A stretch of DNA of 64,000 bases from Oscillatoriales cyanobacterium CG2_30_40_61 (GTDB lineage Bacteria; Cyanobacteriota; Cyanobacteriia; Cyanobacteriales; Microcoleaceae), in the NCBI GenBank assembly GCA_001873365.1, contig MNYZ01000099.1:1-64000 (forward strand), written 5' to 3'. Below are positions 131 through 64,000 of this stretch, one piece after another. Numbering within the stretch: the stretch's first letter is position 1; each line of letters begins with the position of its first letter. The notes beneath the pieces were generated by a model, which was not told the origin of the DNA, searched no databases, and saw only the letters and a list, made by a program, of their open reading frames with translations. The position numbers and the translations under genes were made by a program.

Positions 131-1726
131 CTAGCCACTGAGGAGGGCTTCGATAAACTCGTAGCTGGAAAAGGGGCGTAAATCTTCGATACTTTCCCCA
201 ACTCCGATAAATCGAATCGGTAAGCCGAGTTGCTGGACAATAGCTAGGGCAACACCACCTTTAGCAGTTCCATCGAGTTTTGTCAAGACCACTCCACTTA
301 ATTGAGCCACTTCGGAAAAAACTTCGGCTTGGCGTAAACCGTTTTGACCCAGGGTAGAATCCAATACTAACAAAGATTGGATTTTAGCGGATGGAGCGCG
401 CTTATCAATGACTCGACGAATTTTATTGAGTTCCTCCATTAAATTCTTTTTATTTTGCAAGCGCCCGGCTGTATCAATAATTAACAATTCCGTATTTCGA
501 GATCGGGCTGCTTCGATCGCATCATAAACCACCGCCGCCGGATCGGTATTTTTTCCGGGGTTAGCCACGACTTCTACACCCGTGCGTTCTCCCCAGACCT
601 TCACCTGATCAACGGCCGCCGCCCGAAAGGTGTCTCCGGCTGCGATTAAACACCGATAACCGGATTTTTGGGCTAAATGGGCAATTTTGCCAATTGTAGT
701 GGTTTTACCCGCCCCATTAACTCCGGTGACTAACCAAATATTTAGGGTATCTTTTTCCGGTGCAAAGTTAATCGGATAACCTTGGGAAAAGGGTTCTTCT
801 AAAATTTCCCTTAAGATTTGTTTCAGATAGGCGATCGCCTGTTCTGGAGGTAGGGCCTCTTGACGGAGTTTGTCTTGTAAGGCTGCAATCACGCGATCGG
901 TGGCTGCAACCCCCACATCCGCCTGTAATAGCATAGACTCAATTTCATCAACGGCCTGTTGATTTAATGGCCCCTGACCGACAATGGCCTTTAATTGGTT
1001 AAGTAAGTTGCGCCGCGTCCGTCCTAGGGCTTTCCAGAGTTTCTGTAACCAGGTAATTTCTTCTAAGGCCACTTGATCGGGACGGCGACCTTGATCGGCT
1101 AAGACTTGAGCCGACCACATAAAGACCTCATCAAACACCATTCCCGCTTCTCCAGAGGCACTTTCGCTGGTTTCGGGTTCCGGTTCAATGGCGGTTTCTT
1201 TCAGACGTTCTAGGCGGGTCTGGCGTTCTGTGGTTGATGCGGCCCAAAAGGGGGCAGGGGGAGTAGGGAGAGCACCGGAGGCAGGGGGAGCAGGGGGAGC
1301 ACCGGAGGCACCGGGAGCACCGGGAGCACCGGGAGCACCGGGAGCACCGGGAGCACCGGGAGCAGGGGGAATAGACTCTAAAACAGCTTCGGGTTCTGGT
1401 TCTGTCTCCTCAACGGCAATGGTTTCTACAGGGGTTTCAACAGCCGTTTCTAGTTCTTGAGTTTCTTGGGTTAAAACCGTCTGTTCAACTTCTAGTTCAA
1501 CTTCCGGTTCAACTTCTGGTTCCAGTTGCTGTTGTTTCTGAATATTTTTATAAGCCGCTTTTGCCCACTGTAAATAATCCTCAGAAATTTGAGGTTTTTC
1601 TTCAGAAATATCAGCCGTTTCCGCAGGTTGTTCTACCTGGAGAGGTTCGGATTTAACCTCCGTTTCCGGTTCTTGATTCTGATCGTTTTTTTCATTAAAT
1701 TGACGACGAAACCAGTTGAATACCAT
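131..1726 (-). CDS. ftsY: Signal recognition particle receptor FtsY
   Basis: FtsY is the membrane-associated GTPase that docks SRP-ribosome complexes at the translocon. The C-terminal NG domain is complete: a helical N domain at about residues 225-320, the P-loop [10 protein letters not shown] with Lys341, then [12 protein letters not shown] and the guanine-specificity TKLDG motif near the end. The first 215 residues form an acidic, Glu/Pro-rich A domain, as in many FtsY proteins. Unusually, residues 119-160 are a Gly-Ala-Pro low-complexity tract encoded by a 9-bp minisatellite that also occurs in both flanking intergenic regions. The gene follows DUF502 and nusB on the same strand. The product is secure; the tract is probably length-variable between strains (inference). 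Confidence 0.97.
1246..1372 (-). repeat. In-frame 9-bp minisatellite inside ftsY
   Basis: The plus strand shows tandem GGGAGCACC units, at least five of them exact, flanked by degenerate GGGGGAGCA units. Read on the minus strand, the 9-bp period keeps frame and encodes Gly-Ala-Pro triplets. The same unit occurs outside the gene at about 36-46 and 1753-1803. Confidence 0.9.
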
Positions 1727-1736
1727 AGTTTTTTTT

Positions 1737-1905
1737 AATATTAGTTATTAGGAGAGCACCGGGAGCACCGGGGAGCACCGGGAGGCAGGGGGAGCACCGG
1801 GAGGTAAACTTTTTTTATTACCCATTCGTAATTCGTAATTCGTAATTCGTAATTCGTAATTCGTAATTCGTAATTACCCATTACCCATTACCCATTACCC
1901 ATTAC
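1737..1905. repeat. Minisatellite and heptamer block between nusB and ftsY
   Basis: The block holds GGGAGCACC-type units (about 1753-1803), then about seven ATTCGTA heptamers and about five CCCATTA heptamers. The heptamers run into the 3' end of nusB, so the nusB stop and last codons lie inside the repeat. The minisatellite begins about 25 bp upstream of the ftsY start, so it lies in the ftsY leader if the two genes are co-transcribed. Confidence 0.85.
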
Positions 1906-2526
1906 CTGTTCGTCGGCTTTTAATTTATCGACAAATCGACGGAGAACGCCATTAACGAAGCGATAACTTTCTTCATCGCTGTAACGTTTTGCGAGTTCAA
2001 TGGCTTCATTAATTGCTACTTGTTCTTTTAAGTCTAAATACATTAATTCGGCAACGGCAATGCGGAGAATATCGCGATCAATTCGGGGAAGTCGGTTGAG
2101 TTGCCAATCCACTAATACATCGATTAATAACTGATCAATTTCCGCTTTATGGATATTGACTTGGATGAGAATATCAAGGGCATAATTACAGACTTCTTTT
2201 TGATTGGCTAATTGTACCAATTCCGGTAATTCAATAGCGGTACTCAAGCGATTAATCGCCCCTTGAACTAATTCAATGGCTTCATAAACCATTGTCCTAG
2301 AACTTTGTAAATCACTCGCCCGAATTTGGCTACTCAAAAGGCGATCGCTACTGCGTTGTAATTCAGTAGCTGCTGTTTCTAAGGACTCTTGACCTTCAGT
2401 GGTTAACGTCCTGACAGCGGCAATTAAAACATCATGTAATTCTTGAGATTCTAGGCGTTCGGAAGTCGCAGGAAGTTGACTAATTCCCAGTAAAGCGAGT
2501 TCACGAGCAATACGACGGGCTTGCAT
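1888..2526 (-). CDS. nusB: Transcription antitermination factor NusB
   Basis: NusB binds boxA RNA with NusE (S10) and supports antitermination of rRNA operons. The all-helical NusB fold is recognisable in the C-terminal 130 residues: the [18 protein letters not shown] segment, followed by [26 protein letters not shown]. At 212 residues it is longer than enterobacterial NusB (about 139) because of an N-terminal helical extension, as in other cyanobacteria. It starts 32 bp after the DUF502 gene stop on the same strand. The last six residues, QVMGNG, and the stop codon are encoded by the GGGTAAT heptamer repeat, so the original C-terminus was probably rewritten by repeat expansion. Confidence 0.93.
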
Positions 2527-2558
2527 AAGTTTAACAATAAAGAATAAAGTTTGTCCCT

Positions 2559-3308
2559 TTAATTTTCGCCGACCCCAATTCCCTCATCTTCTAGGACAAT
2601 AGCTGGAATTATATTTTCTCCCTTAACCATAGATTCTAATGGGAGTTTAGGTTTAGGGATCAGGGCTTTCACCGTCGTTGAAGACGTTGTATTAACAATT
2701 CCACCGGACACGATAATTTTAAACGCATCTTCTACCGAGAGGGTCAGGTTGATCACCTCGTGCTGTGGAACAATAGCATACCATCCACTGGTAGGGTTCG
2801 GAGTAGTGGGAATAAATACACTGACCATTTCCTCAGACAATTTAGACTGCATATCATCGCTTACCAACCCAGTAACAAAAGCCAGTGACCAAAGACCTCG
2901 ACGGGGATATTCAACTAAGACCACACGACTAAATTTATCGTTAGAATCTCGTAAAAGGGTTTCTAAAAGTTGTTTCAGGGTTTTGTAAACCGAACCCGCT
3001 AAGGGAATAGCTTGTAAGATTTTTTCACCAAAGCCCAAAAGCCATTGTCCCGCGATATTACGGGCCATAAAACCAATAAATAAAATCCCTAACAGGGGTA
3101 CAGCTAAACCGACCAAAACGTTGAGCAGGTTAACTAAAATTGGATGCAAACCATCAAAGGGATTAATTTGCTTAGGAATACGGGTTAGAAACTCAATCAC
3201 GGAACTGGAGATGGTGATAGTCAACCAGATTGTGGTTGCTAGGGGAATCACGACCAACAGACCTGCAATTAAGTCATTTTTCAAGTCATGCTTTAAGCGT
3301 TGGAACAC
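2559..3308 (-). CDS. DUF502 family membrane protein
   Basis: This 249-residue protein has two membrane segments (about residues 14-38 and 58-85) and then a soluble domain. [17 protein letters not shown] is a hallmark segment of the DUF502 family. The family is widespread in bacteria and plants; plant members are LIKE-COV proteins tied to vascular patterning. No biochemical role is established in bacteria. It is upstream of nusB with a 32-bp gap, so the two are probably co-transcribed. The C-terminal tail is acidic and low-complexity. The family call is firm; function is unknown. Confidence 0.88.
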
Positions 3309-59032: not shown

Positions 59033-61321
59033 ATGCAGCAAGAAATAGCAGTTCTTGAAGATCAACAACCCCTAGGGGAAACAAAAACTAGACGTCCGGG
59101 TATTCGTCCCTTACTGCGAACCTTAAAACGCAAGGTGTTTTTGATTATTGGGGTAGCAGGGATTACTACTTTTTCGGGATTACCTTTTATTAAAGCACAG
59201 TTACCCTCGGTTTATAAAGGCAACTTTCAACTGTTAGTTGAACCTATTACCAGTGAACAAAAACTATCAGACCCTTTAACCTTTACTCGTTCTGATGGAC
59301 AAGTCAGTGATAAATTTTTTACCTTAGATTATCCGACTCAAATTCTGATTTTAACCAGTCCTGAAGTTTTAAATAATATTGCTAAACAAGTCCAGACTCG
59401 TTATCCTAAAATAACGGCGGAAACTTTAGCAGATAAATTAAAATTAGGCCGGGTATCCAATGGTAAAAGCCCCCTGGATAAAACTAAAATTTTAGAAGTT
59501 CTCTATAAGGGAGAAGACCAAAAAGAAATCCTATTTGTTTTAGAGAAAACCAAAGAAAAATATTTAAAATACAGTTTGGATGAGCGCAAATCTCGGATTA
59601 GTCAAGGGGTGAAATTTATTGATGAACAACTGCCTTTATTGCAAACAAGAGTCGATGACTATCGAGGTAGATTAGAAAAAATTCAACAGGAGTATGAATT
59701 ATTAGAGCCGACCCAAGGCGGTCAGGCTTTATATGAACAAATTCGGACTTTACAAAATCAGAGTCAAGAAACCGAAAGGCAACTGCAAGAACAGAAAGTT
59801 TTATATCAACATCTTCAAGAACAATTATCACTGAATCCCGATGAAGCCGTCGCCGCTTCTGCCTTAAGTGAAAGTCCATTTCGTAAACAAATATTAGATA
59901 GTTTGATGGCAGTTGAAACTCAAATTGCAGTTCAATCAGCTACTTTTAATTCTAATAGTCCAGAACTTCAACAATTAAAAGAACAACAGGTTAATTTATC
60001 ACGATTATTAGAAGCAGAAAATAAAAAAGTTCTGGGAGAAAAAGCCTCACAATTAGAAAATAATTCTTCGGTCATGGCTTTTCAAACCTCAATTCGTCAA
60101 AGTTTAATTGTACAACTGGTAAATACGAATAGTCTAATGAAATCCTTAGAGGTTAGGCTACAAGGGTTAAATAATGCACTGAATACTTTAAATCAACAAG
60201 CCCACATATTTCCCAGTGTCGTTCGTCAATATACTGAAATTCAACAACAACTTGATTTAACTAATAAACGATTGAATTTATTTTTAGACGAGCGAGAAAA
60301 ATTACGCATTGAAGCGGCTCAAAATAACGTTCCTTGGGAGGTTATTTCTCAACCTAGTATTCTCTTGAATGCCAAAGGAAAACCGGTTTCTTCTGAAGCT
60401 GAGGGGCCGATGAAAAAGCTGATTATGGTGGTGGGGGCGGGTCTGGCTTTGGGTGTTTTATTATCACTTTTGTTAGAAAGATTCCGCAATATTTTTTATA
60501 CCCGGGAGGATTTAGAAGATCTGATTCAATTTCCGGTTTTAGGGGAGATTCCTCGCCATAATAATTTTGCTGTTTCTGTTGATCTCAGAAGTCCAAAATT
60601 GGCAAAATCCAACCGCCGAATGTTGGAAAAAATGGCTCAGTTTTTGGGTGCTTTTGATCAAGTTTATGCTAATGTTAGATTTTTATATGCTGATTCTTTA
60701 ATTCGTTCGATTGCCATTTGTTCAGCCGAATCTAAGGATGGAAAATCAACTATTGCGTTACATTTAGCTCAAACTATTGCGAATATGGGCCAGCGGGTTT
60801 TGTTAGTAGATGCTAATTTACGTTATCCCCAACTGCATACGGTTTTAGGAGTATCTAATCAAAAGGGACTTAGTGATTTATTAATGCAAAAAAGCACACC
60901 GAGTTCTGTGATTCAAAGAACACCTTTAGCAGAAACTCTATTTGTTTTAACAGCCGGAGTTCCCTACGCTAATACCTTTAAATTATTGGGTTCAGAACAA
61001 ATGCAAAAAGTGATTGAAACCCTGCAAGATAGTTATGATTTAGTGATTTATGACACTCCAGAATTACATGAATATACCGATACTATATTTTTAGCAGAAC
61101 ATTTGGATGGTTTGATTTTAGTCGCCACCGTCCATAAGACTCATAAAACAGTTTTTCAGCAAACTTTAGATCAACTGAATACTTATCGAATGCCTTGTAT
61201 TGGCTTAATTGTTAATCATATTCAGCTTAATTCTTCTATCACCTATCCCTTTTACCTAACACCATCTTTAGTTAACTTAGAACCAAAATATGAACAGGAA
61301 ACAGTAATCAGTAATCAGTAA
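59033..61321 (+). CDS. Wzc-like polysaccharide co-polymerase and tyrosine kinase
   Basis: 762 residues. Two membrane helices (about 30-55 and 460-480) bracket a periplasmic coiled-coil domain, the Wzz-type chain-length region. The C-terminal BY-kinase domain has a Walker A-like SAESKDGKST (about 567-576), Walker A' VLLVDANLRYPQ and Walker B-like DLVIYDTPE. The C-terminal tail has only three scattered tyrosines instead of the usual dense cluster. The last residues (VISNQ) and stop are repeat-encoded. Works with the Wza-like channel upstream. Confidence 0.9.
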   Translation: MQQEIAVLEDQQPLGETKTRRPGIRPLLRTLKRKVFLIIGVAGITTFSGLPFIKAQLPSVYKGNFQLLVEPITSEQKLSDPLTFTRSDGQVSDKFFTLDYPTQILILTSPEVLNNIAKQVQTRYPKITAETLADKLKLGRVSNGKSPLDKTKILEVLYKGEDQKEILFVLEKTKEKYLKYSLDERKSRISQGVKFIDEQLPLLQTRVDDYRGRLEKIQQEYELLEPTQGGQALYEQIRTLQNQSQETERQLQEQKVLYQHLQEQLSLNPDEAVAASALSESPFRKQILDSLMAVETQIAVQSATFNSNSPELQQLKEQQVNLSRLLEAENKKVLGEKASQLENNSSVMAFQTSIRQSLIVQLVNTNSLMKSLEVRLQGLNNALNTLNQQAHIFPSVVRQYTEIQQQLDLTNKRLNLFLDEREKLRIEAAQNNVPWEVISQPSILLNAKGKPVSSEAEGPMKKLIMVVGAGLALGVLLSLLLERFRNIFYTREDLEDLIQFPVLGEIPRHNNFAVSVDLRSPKLAKSNRRMLEKMAQFLGAFDQVYANVRFLYADSLIRSIAICSAESKDGKSTIALHLAQTIANMGQRVLLVDANLRYPQLHTVLGVSNQKGLSDLLMQKSTPSSVIQRTPLAETLFVLTAGVPYANTFKLLGSEQMQKVIETLQDSYDLVIYDTPELHEYTDTIFLAEHLDGLILVATVHKTHKTVFQQTLDQLNTYRMPCIGLIVNHIQLNSSITYPFYLTPSLVNLEPKYEQETVISNQ

Positions 61322-61483
61322 TAGGTAATGGGTAATAGGTAATAGGTAATAGGTAATAGGTAATGGGTAATGGGTAATGGGGAAAATTACCGCTTTCGCG
61401 GTAATGACAGCCGATAGGTAGTCCTAACAGCCCTGGCGCGGTTGCTATCAACTGATAACTGATAACTGTTGACTGATAACTGA
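61305..61483. repeat. STRR arrays between convergent wzc-like gene and argJ
   Basis: Plus-strand heptamers run as ATCAGTA, then TAATAGG (several), then TAATGGG. A perfect 8-bp hairpin ATTACCGC/GCGGTAAT with loop TTTC (61386-61405) follows, then TGATAAC heptamers up to the argJ stop codon. The array begins inside the wzc-like gene. Confidence 0.85.
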
Positions 61484-62725
61484 TTAAGTGGTGTATTCCG
61501 CGTTAATTTTTACATAGTCATAACTTAAATCGCATCCCCAGGCTTTGCCCACGCCGGAGCCGTTGCCGATTTTAACGGAAATTAATACCGTATCTTCTTT
61601 GAGATATGCTCCTATTTTAGCTTGCTTTAAATACTCATTCGCTGCATTGCGATCAAAAGCTAGGGGTTGACCCTGCTGCATTAAAACAAAATCCCCTAAT
61701 TTGATTTCTAAATCATTTTGGTCAAAATGGACTCCCGCCCGTCCCGCCGCCGCGGCAATTCTTCCCCAGTTGGGATCATCACCAAAAATGGCGGACTTCA
61801 CCAAAGACGAACCGACAATGGTTTTAGCCACTTTACAAGCCGAGGCTTCATCCTGGGCCCCGGAAACTTGAACTTCAATTAAACAGGTGGCTCCTTCTCC
61901 ATCTCGCGCGATCGCCTTGGCCAAATATTCACAAACGGCTGTTAACATCCCTTCTAATTTTTCCGCTTCTGGCCCCATACCCGTAATTGCCGGAGTCCGG
62001 GACGCACCATTGGCTAAGGCAATTAAACAATCATTGGTACTGGTATCACCATCAACAGTAACTTGGTTAAAACTCCGGTTAGCCACACGGCTTAACATTT
62101 CTTGCCAGAGGGGAGGGGAAACCACCGCATCGCAGGTGACAAAAGCTAACATCGTCGCCATATTGGGGTGAATCATCCCCGACCCTTTACAAATTCCCCC
62201 GACTCTCACGGGGCGATCGCCAAACATGGTTTCTAAGGCAATGGTTTTCGGGACTAAATCCGTGGTCATAATTGCTTTGGCTACAGCCGCGTTACCATTC
62301 TCTGACAATTCCTCGACTAACTTGGGAATTCCTGCCTTGAGGATATCCATTTTAATCCGTTGACCGATAACTCCGGTAGAAGCTAGTAAAATCGATTCCG
62401 GTGCAATATTTAAGACTTGAGCCAGAGCTTGGGCCGAGTCTACCGCATCTGTCCAACCGGCTGCTCCGGTGGCGGCATTAGCTTGCCCTGAATTACATAA
62501 AATGGCTTTGGCGCTGGGTTTGGTTTGGAGTTGTTGACGACAATAATCAACACAGGCGGCTCTAACTTGACTGGTGGTAAATACTCCGGCTGCGATCGCA
62601 TCTACATCGGAGACAATTAAGGCTAAATCCGGTAATCCCGATGCTTTCAACCCGGCCGTAATTCCCGATGCCCGATACCCTCTAGGGGCAGTCACCCCAC
62701 CCTCAATCACTGTCCAATCTGTCAT
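61484..62725 (-). CDS. argJ: Bifunctional glutamate N-acetyltransferase / amino-acid acetyltransferase
   Basis: ArgJ transfers acetyl from N-acetylornithine to glutamate (and from acetyl-CoA in bifunctional forms), completing the cyclic arginine pathway. From the ATG at 62725 it is 413 residues; GGGGA lies upstream, and the longer ORF start adds 11 unlikely residues. The autocleavage site is intact: HPNMATMLAF, with nucleophile Thr191. GGVTAPRGYRASGI, GVFTTSQV and the C-terminal GCDLSYDYVKINAEYTT are family features. The stop codon abuts heptamer repeats. Confidence 0.96.
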   Translation of the reverse strand: MTDWTVIEGGVTAPRGYRASGITAGLKASGLPDLALIVSDVDAIAAGVFTTSQVRAACVDYCRQQLQTKPSAKAILCNSGQANAATGAAGWTDAVDSAQALAQVLNIAPESILLASTGVIGQRIKMDILKAGIPKLVEELSENGNAAVAKAIMTTDLVPKTIALETMFGDRPVRVGGICKGSGMIHPNMATMLAFVTCDAVVSPPLWQEMLSRVANRSFNQVTVDGDTSTNDCLIALANGASRTPAITGMGPEAEKLEGMLTAVCEYLAKAIARDGEGATCLIEVQVSGAQDEASACKVAKTIVGSSLVKSAIFGDDPNWGRIAAAAGRAGVHFDQNDLEIKLGDFVLMQQGQPLAFDRNAANEYLKQAKIGAYLKEDTVLISVKIGNGSGVGKAWGCDLSYDYVKINAEYTT

Positions 62726-62866
62726 GATTTCCCCTTGTGTTTGCACTATTACTGACAAGGGATTATATCAAGACCTCAACCATAAAAATATCCCCACTTG
62801 CGATCTTGAAAGCGGGGGCATTGATTAATTGATGGTGAATTTACAGTTATCTGATTGACAACTCAA

Positions 62867-63058
62867 TTAACTCATGGATGAGCCACTGCGGTCATAGCTG
62901 CTCGCGCTGTCTGTCGGTTTACCTTGAATTGTTGTCCGATAATCTCCGGGTTCAATGCCGACTTCATCAGCGATGCGGTTGAGGAGGGATTGTTGACGGT
63001 TTTTGATCGCTTGATGATGACGCATCATTAACGCCCGAGCTTGATTTTGAGTATCCAT
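62867..63058 (-). CDS. Small tandem paralogue 3
   Basis: 63 residues, third and most downstream of three paralogues. The shared core is TQNQARALMMRHH, then IKNRQQSLLNR, EPGD, TIQGKP and a C-terminal YDR. This copy has one extra residue in GDYRTTIQG. A CAGGAG leader element lies about 10 bases upstream, as for the others. Hydrophilic, with no signal peptide. Family not recognised; function unknown. Confidence 0.75.
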   Translation of the reverse strand: MDTQNQARALMMRHHQAIKNRQQSLLNRIADEVGIEPGDYRTTIQGKPTDSASSYDRSGSSMS

Positions 63059-63121
63059 AATTGGTCTCTCCTGTGTTTAAAATTGAATGTTTTTTTGAGC
63101 TTAATATTGTATTTAACTCGC

Positions 63122-63310
63122 CTAAATCATCCCGTTGCCACGGTCATAGTTGCTAACAGAATTGGCACTGGGTTTACCTTGAATGGTTGAGATATCACCG
63201 GGTTCCGTACCCACTTCGTCAGAAACCCGATTTAACATGGATTGTTGACGATTTTTAATCACTTGATGATGACGCATCATTAAAGCCCGAGCTTGATTTT
63301 GAGTATTCAT
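63122..63310 (-). CDS. Small tandem paralogue 2
   Basis: 62 residues, the middle copy. It shares TQNQARALMMRHH, IKNRQQSMLNR, DEVGTEPGDISTIQGKP and SNYDR with its neighbours, and differs mainly in the last five residues (GNGMI). The upstream sequence CACAGGAG is shared with paralogue 3. The spacing of about 60-90 bp is short, so one transcript for all three is likely. Confidence 0.77.
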   Translation of the reverse strand: MNTQNQARALMMRHHQVIKNRQQSMLNRVSDEVGTEPGDISTIQGKPSANSVSNYDRGNGMI

Positions 63311-63401
63311 AATTTGTTTCTCCTGTGTTTAAGATTGAAAGGTTTTTGAACTAAAATTTGCTTAACTAAAATATTAAGAAAGATTGCAATTATTAATCTT
63401 C

Positions 63402-63593
63402 CTAACTCATGGCGGCGTTACTGCGGTCATAGCTGCTCGCAGAATGGGCGCTAGGTTTGCCTTGAATCGTCGATATATCGCCAGGTTCTACACCAACTTG
63501 ATCGGAAACCCGGTTAAGTAAGGACTGTTGACGATTTTTGATGGTGTGGTGATGACGCATCATTAACGCCCGAGCTTGATCTTGAGTACCCAT
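63402..63593 (-). CDS. Small tandem paralogue 1
   Basis: 63 residues, the promoter-proximal copy. The core is TQDQARALMMRHHHTIKN, then QVGVEPGDISTIQGKP and SSYDR. CAGGAG precedes the start. The leader contains a 6-bp hairpin (AGCCTA/TAGGCT at about 63618-63637) and an inverted repeat at 63661-63674 that could control the whole set. Positively charged N-terminal half, Ser-rich C-terminus; no membrane segment. Confidence 0.77.
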   Translation of the reverse strand: MGTQDQARALMMRHHHTIKNRQQSLLNRVSDQVGVEPGDISTIQGKPSAHSASSYDRSNAAMS

Positions 63594-63660
63594 AAGTTTG
63601 TTCTCCTGAATGAATAGCCTAAAAAGTAATAGGCTGTTTTTGTCTTCAATTTCTAATATA

Positions 63661-63674
63661 ACAGAACATTCTGT
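63661..63674. promoter_or_regulatory. ACAGAA-CA-TTCTGT inverted repeat upstream of the small paralogues
   Basis: A 6+6 bp inverted repeat with a 2-bp spacer. On the minus strand it lies directly before TATATT, a possible -10 box, so a regulator bound here would occlude the promoter. It resembles a LexA-type half-site geometry but does not match the known cyanobacterial box closely. Confidence 0.4.
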
Positions 63675-63843
63675 AGTCTATTTTACAAAATGCCCTAAAT
63701 TAACAAATCTTTACATTTTTTTTAGAATCCATAGAGTTGGAATCAGGCTAATTTGCGGATGTAACCCCATGATTAGGGGCAATTTAGAGAAAAAGCAGGC
63801 AGTGTGTAAATGAGGGTATATTTAGGACGGTGATTAGCTCTGA

Positions 63844-64000
63844 TTAAAACAAAGCCCCCAGGGAGCGGCCCATATTTTCCAGTTTCATCGCTTCTACGGC
63901 CGCCGTGGGTTCATAACCACAGTGAACCATGCAATCTACACATTTAGGATTACCACTGGATTTTCCGTATTGTTCCCAGTCGGTTTTTTCCAATAATTCT
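63844..64000 (-). CDS. hpnH: Adenosyl-hopene transferase HpnH, C-terminal part
   Basis: Partial gene running off the right edge; 52 codons of the 3' end are seen. The residues NPKCVDCMVHCGYEPTAAVEA match the characteristic C-terminal Cys-rich motif of HpnH, the radical SAM enzyme that joins adenosyl to hopene on the way to bacteriohopanetetrol. The upstream CxxxCxxC cluster is outside the window. With shc and hpnB it indicates extended hopanoid synthesis in this organism. The tandem paralogues lie about 250 bp downstream on the same strand. Confidence 0.85.
   Translation of the reverse strand, partial: ELLEKTDWEQYGKSSGNPKCVDCMVHCGYEPTAAVEAMKLENMGRSLGALF

Follow-up and report, generated by a model that had tools for sequence, protein, structure and literature searches.

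A tandem array of three gifA-family genes in an Oscillatoriales cyanobacterium, headed by a single NtcA-type site

Three small genes lying in tandem in the stretch of DNA analysed here (64,000 nucleotides from Oscillatoriales cyanobacterium CG2_30_40_61, hereafter the window) belong, by their sequence, to the family of IF7, the cyanobacterial inactivating factor, encoded by gifA, that turns glutamine synthetase (GS) off when ammonium is plentiful. It is very probable that the array is a gifA operon whose three IF7s are repressed through NtcA, released by ammonium and directed at the sole type I GS of the genome. The family of the products, their arginines, the NtcA-type site and its position, the one GS gene with its activating-type site and a genome in which no IF17 was found all enter into this reading, under which NtcA would bind the site, the three genes would be transcribed together and their products would inactivate GS.

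The three genes and their family

The ORFs occupy positions 62867-63593 of the minus strand, and each begins with ATG: copy A, the first of the array (63402-63593, 63 residues), copy B (63122-63310, 62 residues) and copy C (62867-63058, 63 residues). A sequence-only reading of this DNA had described a tandem array of three paralogous genes for products of 62-63 residues, with a common leader and downstream of hpnH, and in these respects it was accurate: the ORFs are as described, CAGGAG is present in the leaders of all three copies, and the gene upstream, on the same strand, matches the hpnH profile TIGR03470 at 547 bits. The order in the direction of transcription is hpnH, copy A, copy B, copy C and argJ. 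A repeat search returned the copies as a single direct-repeat family of 193 nt with start-to-start spacings of 252 and 283 nt; the A-B gap (63311-63401, minus strand) and the B-C gap (63059-63121, minus strand) hold the CAGGAG leaders of copies B and C, respectively, and no strict NtcA-type site. The tails do diverge more than the rest, as that reading held, but its description of the N-terminal 45 residues as nearly identical was overstated, the identities being 38/45 for A-B, 35/46 for A-C and 37/46 for B-C, against 10/18, 12/18 and 7/18 in the residues that follow.

All three products exceed the curated cut-off of 70 bits for the NCBIfam profile NF052599 (IF7A), copy A with 96.7, copy B with 87.9 and copy C with 103.3 bits. 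The sequence-only reading did not recognise the family and proposed that these might be stress-induced small proteins; the homologues have a known function, that of IF7, an outcome which that reading had itself named as speaking against it. The three arginines R8, R21 and R28, which we take to be the GS-binding arginines of IF7, are invariant in all 37 members of an alignment hand-chosen from the fetched loci and including the three window copies. On this alignment AlphaFold predicts a single helix, residues 3-33, that carries all three arginines and is followed by a tail of low confidence (pLDDT per ten residues from residue 1 of 87, 91, 84 and then 65; mean 71; pTM 0.42). For the Synechocystis protein, GS binding is described as requiring three conserved arginines (PMC6316151).

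Synechocystis IF7 (Ssl1911) has in common with the window copies its length, the helix, the three arginines and the tail motifs IQGK and YDRS, together with a single NtcA-type site close to the position from which NtcA represses. The window differs in having three tandem copies and in the altered final residues of copy B, which ends in RGNGMI where copy A ends in RSNAAMS, so that the function of copy B may differ. The Synechocystis gifA mRNA is also a target of the small RNA NsiR4; a literature search that had most subscription journals outside its reach found nothing on NsiR4 in Planktothrix.

No Pfam family was matched at its cut-off by any of the three products, the one sub-threshold match being that of copy B to DUF7678 (E 0.11), and copy A, compared with the sequences of solved structures, gave no match at E up to 1. 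Origins outside the cellular chromosome were considered and rejected: copy B had no match in a phage collection; a search of viral contigs with one relative's IF7 as query, which reaches close relatives only, gave no confirmed match; and plasmids gave one match of 36.9%, within an Acaryochloris DUF4278 protein.

A single NtcA-type site ahead of the array

The sequence GTAAAATAGACTAC (63673-63686, minus strand), which has the GTA-N8-TAC form of an NtcA site and is a putative target of that regulator, starts 93 bp upstream of the ATG of copy A. Comparison of promoters picks out a -10-like hexamer, TATATT (63655-63660, minus strand), and the TG at 63662-63663 makes of it an extended -10, TG-T-TATATT (63655-63663), which would put the start of transcription near 63648. 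Counted from this predicted start, the centre of the site falls at about -31.5 if the -10 stands at its usual distance from the start; judged from the letters alone, this is the repressing position over the core promoter expected of an IF7/GifA gene. Synechocystis gifA is described as NtcA-repressed from a site at -30.5, and Anabaena gifA as having a repressing site at -28.5 and a second at -77.5 (PMC6316151), whereas the window shows one strict site. A sigma-70 consensus scan of 62600-63900 returned 5 promoter-like sites against 3.5 expected in shuffles and did not include the promoter of the array, so that the start and the -10 rest on comparison.

The arrangement recurs among relatives. Of 51 arrays or single genes, 50 have a strict GTA-N8-TAC no more than 130 bp upstream of the first copy; this non-random set consists of the window, 30 loci (one genome each, among the matches listed from 98 relatives searched) and 20 picked arrays; base-shuffled upstream stretches satisfied the same criterion in 333 of 10200 cases. 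The sole miss, L048, has its site at -239, and among the 50 L053 probably matches by chance, since the sequence context usual for such a site is missing there and a second strict site stands 449 bp upstream. Before later copies a strict site was never seen (0/67). One NtcA-type site heading each array suggests a single operon, and we infer that the three window copies are one, within which promoters or terminators may lie between the copies.

The GS target and the search for IF17

The source genome (119 contigs, 99% complete) contains one gene that matches PF00120 at E up to 0.001, a type I GS of 473 residues (TIGR00653, 676 bits), and upstream of it GTA-N8-TAC-N23-TATGAT, starting at -119, has the activating arrangement. 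IF17, the product of gifB, carries a DUF4278 N-terminus, and its leader in Synechocystis contains a glutamine riboswitch. The C-terminal part of IF17 is described as homologous to IF7 (PMC6316151). The window products differ from IF17 in being 62-63 residues long and in lacking the DUF4278 part, and no glutamine riboswitch was found in the window, where Rfam at gathering scores returned two tRNAs only.

Elsewhere in the genome, a search with copy B at E up to 10 and one with the NF052599 profile matched only the three places in the window, and a DUF4278 search gave one gene above cut-off, for which NCBIfam yielded nothing at E up to 0.01. The DUF4278 product of this gene (L058; contig C19, 1416-1905) is 134 residues long and is not matched by NF052599, and a GTA-N8-TAC site starts 85 bp upstream of its ATG. 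Two glutamine riboswitches do score above the Rfam cut-off in the genome (L034 on contig C1 and L035 on contig C71), neither of them on the gifA contig.

The proposed sequence of events can then be laid out. When nitrogen is scarce, NtcA together with 2-oxoglutarate would occupy the single promoter site and keep the operon off, and at the same time it would activate glnA; when ammonium arrives, NtcA would leave the site, all three copies would be produced, and each IF7 would bind type I GS through its arginine-bearing N-terminal helix and inactivate it.

Spread and genomic neighbourhood

Matches to the family were found in 87 of the 98 relatives and two or more in 73, counts in which short, broken and IF17-like matches are included. 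Of the 30 loci among the matches listed, 13 carry another copy within the stretch, and a sample of the phylum gave matches in 96 of its 292 genomes. In the window argJ (61484-62725) comes after the gifA copies in the same orientation, and this holds at 25 of 50 related loci, in a search whose flanks were often shorter than 1.5 kb, so that absence elsewhere says little. Between the array and argJ lies a possible terminator (62784-62819, minus strand), a hairpin GCCCCCGCTTTC...AAGTGGGG followed by ATATTTTT; a 55-nt piece that contains it folds at -13.7 kcal/mol, and the consensus scan did not return it. A TATAAT is also present between the array and argJ.

At seven loci of the window's genus (L037, L038, L040, L041, L043, L044 and L045) the gene upstream of the array is, by eye, a glycoside-hydrolase-like ORF in six; in genome G007 hpnH stands upstream as it does in the window, the sole hpnH match among the 50 short-flank loci. 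Further along the window, GGTAATAGGTAAT-type units form a short run in tandem (61310-61385) directly after an ORF (59033-61321) that by eye has the look of a polysaccharide-type tyrosine kinase.

Relatives also carry what we call mini-IF7s, products in which the helix and the three arginines are retained and the IQGK/YDRS tail is absent; their lengths are 40-52 residues, with one of 58, and they were seen in relatives only. They follow a full-length copy at 11 of the 30 loci among the matches listed, and also in G017, G022 and G065, while in G063 an NtcA-type site stands ahead of a pair of 40-residue mini-IF7s, and G060 has just one. The entries concerned (L014-L017, L024-L029, L033, L055, L072, L073, L074 and L081) lie mostly behind full-length gifA. 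Three mini-IF7s scored on NF052599 reached 67, 64 and 52 bits and thus fell short of the cut-off. They are candidates for lesser inhibitors, decoys or relics, and the repeated near-identical copies in G065 and G017 speak against relics. Titles and abstract openings on IF7, in a literature search beyond which most subscription journals lay, make no mention of a shortened form. Two further loci (L076 and L077) encode proteins of 109 and 112 residues that by eye are DUF4278-like and end in a tail-less IF7 helix module, like a shortened IF17.

Age of the copies and the meaning of their number

The sequence-only reading had also raised the possibility of a dosage-amplified family, and expected that variation in copy number among strains would support recent amplification. 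Copy number does vary, with 2-4 matches per genome in ten genomes of the genus and up to 8 elsewhere (IF17-like and broken matches included), and the tandem paralogous array is real; recent amplification of the window copies, however, is not supported, given their pairwise synonymous distances of 1.0-1.2, which mark them as old duplicates. These and the following distances are rough and in part saturated, as the genes are short, and a fused copy in G005 (a B-C fusion that may be an artefact) was left out. Within the window subclade of six genomes, the median dS between species at the same position is 0.41 for A (15 pairs), 0.44 for B (14 pairs) and 0.25 for C (6 pairs, four genomes), and within a genome it is 1.19 for A-B (6 pairs), 1.76 for A-C (4 pairs) and 0.85 for B-C (4 pairs). 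Between the two subclades the medians are 0.58 for A-A, 0.70 for B-B and 0.88 for C-C. In the second subclade (four genomes) the within-genome A-B median of 0.66 is not above the between-subclade value for B-B, which points to a degree of exchange between these two positions in that subclade.

Within one subclade, median dN divided by median dS gives 0.12 for A (15 pairs), 0.02 for B (14 pairs) and 0.07 for C (6 pairs), values that point to purifying selection at all three positions. In the tree the C-position copies of eight genomes come together in a single clade (ultrafast bootstrap 87), the A position is without resolution and the B position splits by subclade (90 and 68); since the B copies of the two subclades are not one clade, position B is not one stable lineage. 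Relatives do show recent duplications: G002 has two B copies with identical protein, and G018 and G023 have runs of near-identical copies. In G007 (L043, about 1444-3000) the third gifA copy is shortened and followed by a further B-type copy, with, by eye, a transposase-like ORF beside it; the assembly has an N adjoining that copy, so that an assembly error is possible.

Several answers to why there should be three copies fit within the IF7 reading. Most likely, though this is a guess, three copies mean more inhibitor, possibly of graded strength, in a genome in which no IF17 was found. Pure dosage, in which there is one interchangeable inhibitor whose amount is raised and whose copy number shifts by recombination, is a serious contender that falls somewhat short of an even chance: the range of 2-4 matches among genomes of the genus and the identical or near-identical copies just described speak for it, but the synonymous distances between the window copies and the C-position clade indicate that these have not been homogenised. 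A more tentative proposal, to which we give about one chance in four, is that gifA arrays are graded inhibitor sets, the helix binding GS and the tail setting strength or stability, so that lineages would tune how GS is shut off; the mini-IF7s made behind a full-length copy would be its extreme case. It is unlikely that the roles are split, with one or more copies having given up the usual action on GlnA and instead binding another partner or modulating the other copies through their divergent tails: the tails differ more than the helix and are nonetheless held (copy B, median dN 0.010 at dS 0.440), and tail-less versions occur behind full-length copies in relatives, but the helix and the three arginines are kept in all three window copies and the B copies fail to form one clade.

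The inverted repeat over the promoter

An inverted repeat that the sequence-only reading placed over the likely promoter, ACAGAACATTCTGT, is present at 63661-63674, its 6-nt arms being shorter than the 12 nt that the repeat search required. One arm coincides with the TACAGAA at the end of the NtcA-type site, and the other enters the extended -10. Across the 50 promoters TACAGAA is kept in 46, and 37 have a -10-like hexamer that starts 12 nt beyond the site, whereas CAGAA-N2-TTCTG is kept in 14, so that a separate element is unsupported and the best reading of the repeat is a composite of the edge of the NtcA-type site and the -10 region of the promoter. That it is the operator of a second regulator is very improbable, for CAGAA-N2-TTCTG is indeed kept in 10 of 10 promoters of the window's genus and 4 of 40 others, but 36 of the 50 do without it and the two parts of the composite are far more widely kept.

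Significance

Tandem gifA genes have been met before. Limnospira indica PCC 8005 is listed with four gifA genes under consecutive tags, _60802 to _60805 (PMC8400943), and thus shares with the window several gifA genes adjacent in tag order; it differs in also having two gifB candidates, whereas no IF17 was found in the source genome. The window array adds another case to a known family, in an arrangement met before, and it is largely ordinary, because the family is that of IF7 and the repeat is mostly the edge of the NtcA-type site and the -10 region. Less expected are the tail-less mini-IF7s, seen in relatives only, and the linkage of gifA to argJ.

A family that had gone unrecognised in this DNA is now a well-studied one, and the repeat upstream of it has an explanation. 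Strains with one or two inhibitors are those described in the review (PMC6316151), whereas many relatives in the sample have tandem gifA sets under one NtcA-type site. A set of IF7s that differ in their tails may alter the speed or the depth with which GS is shut off.
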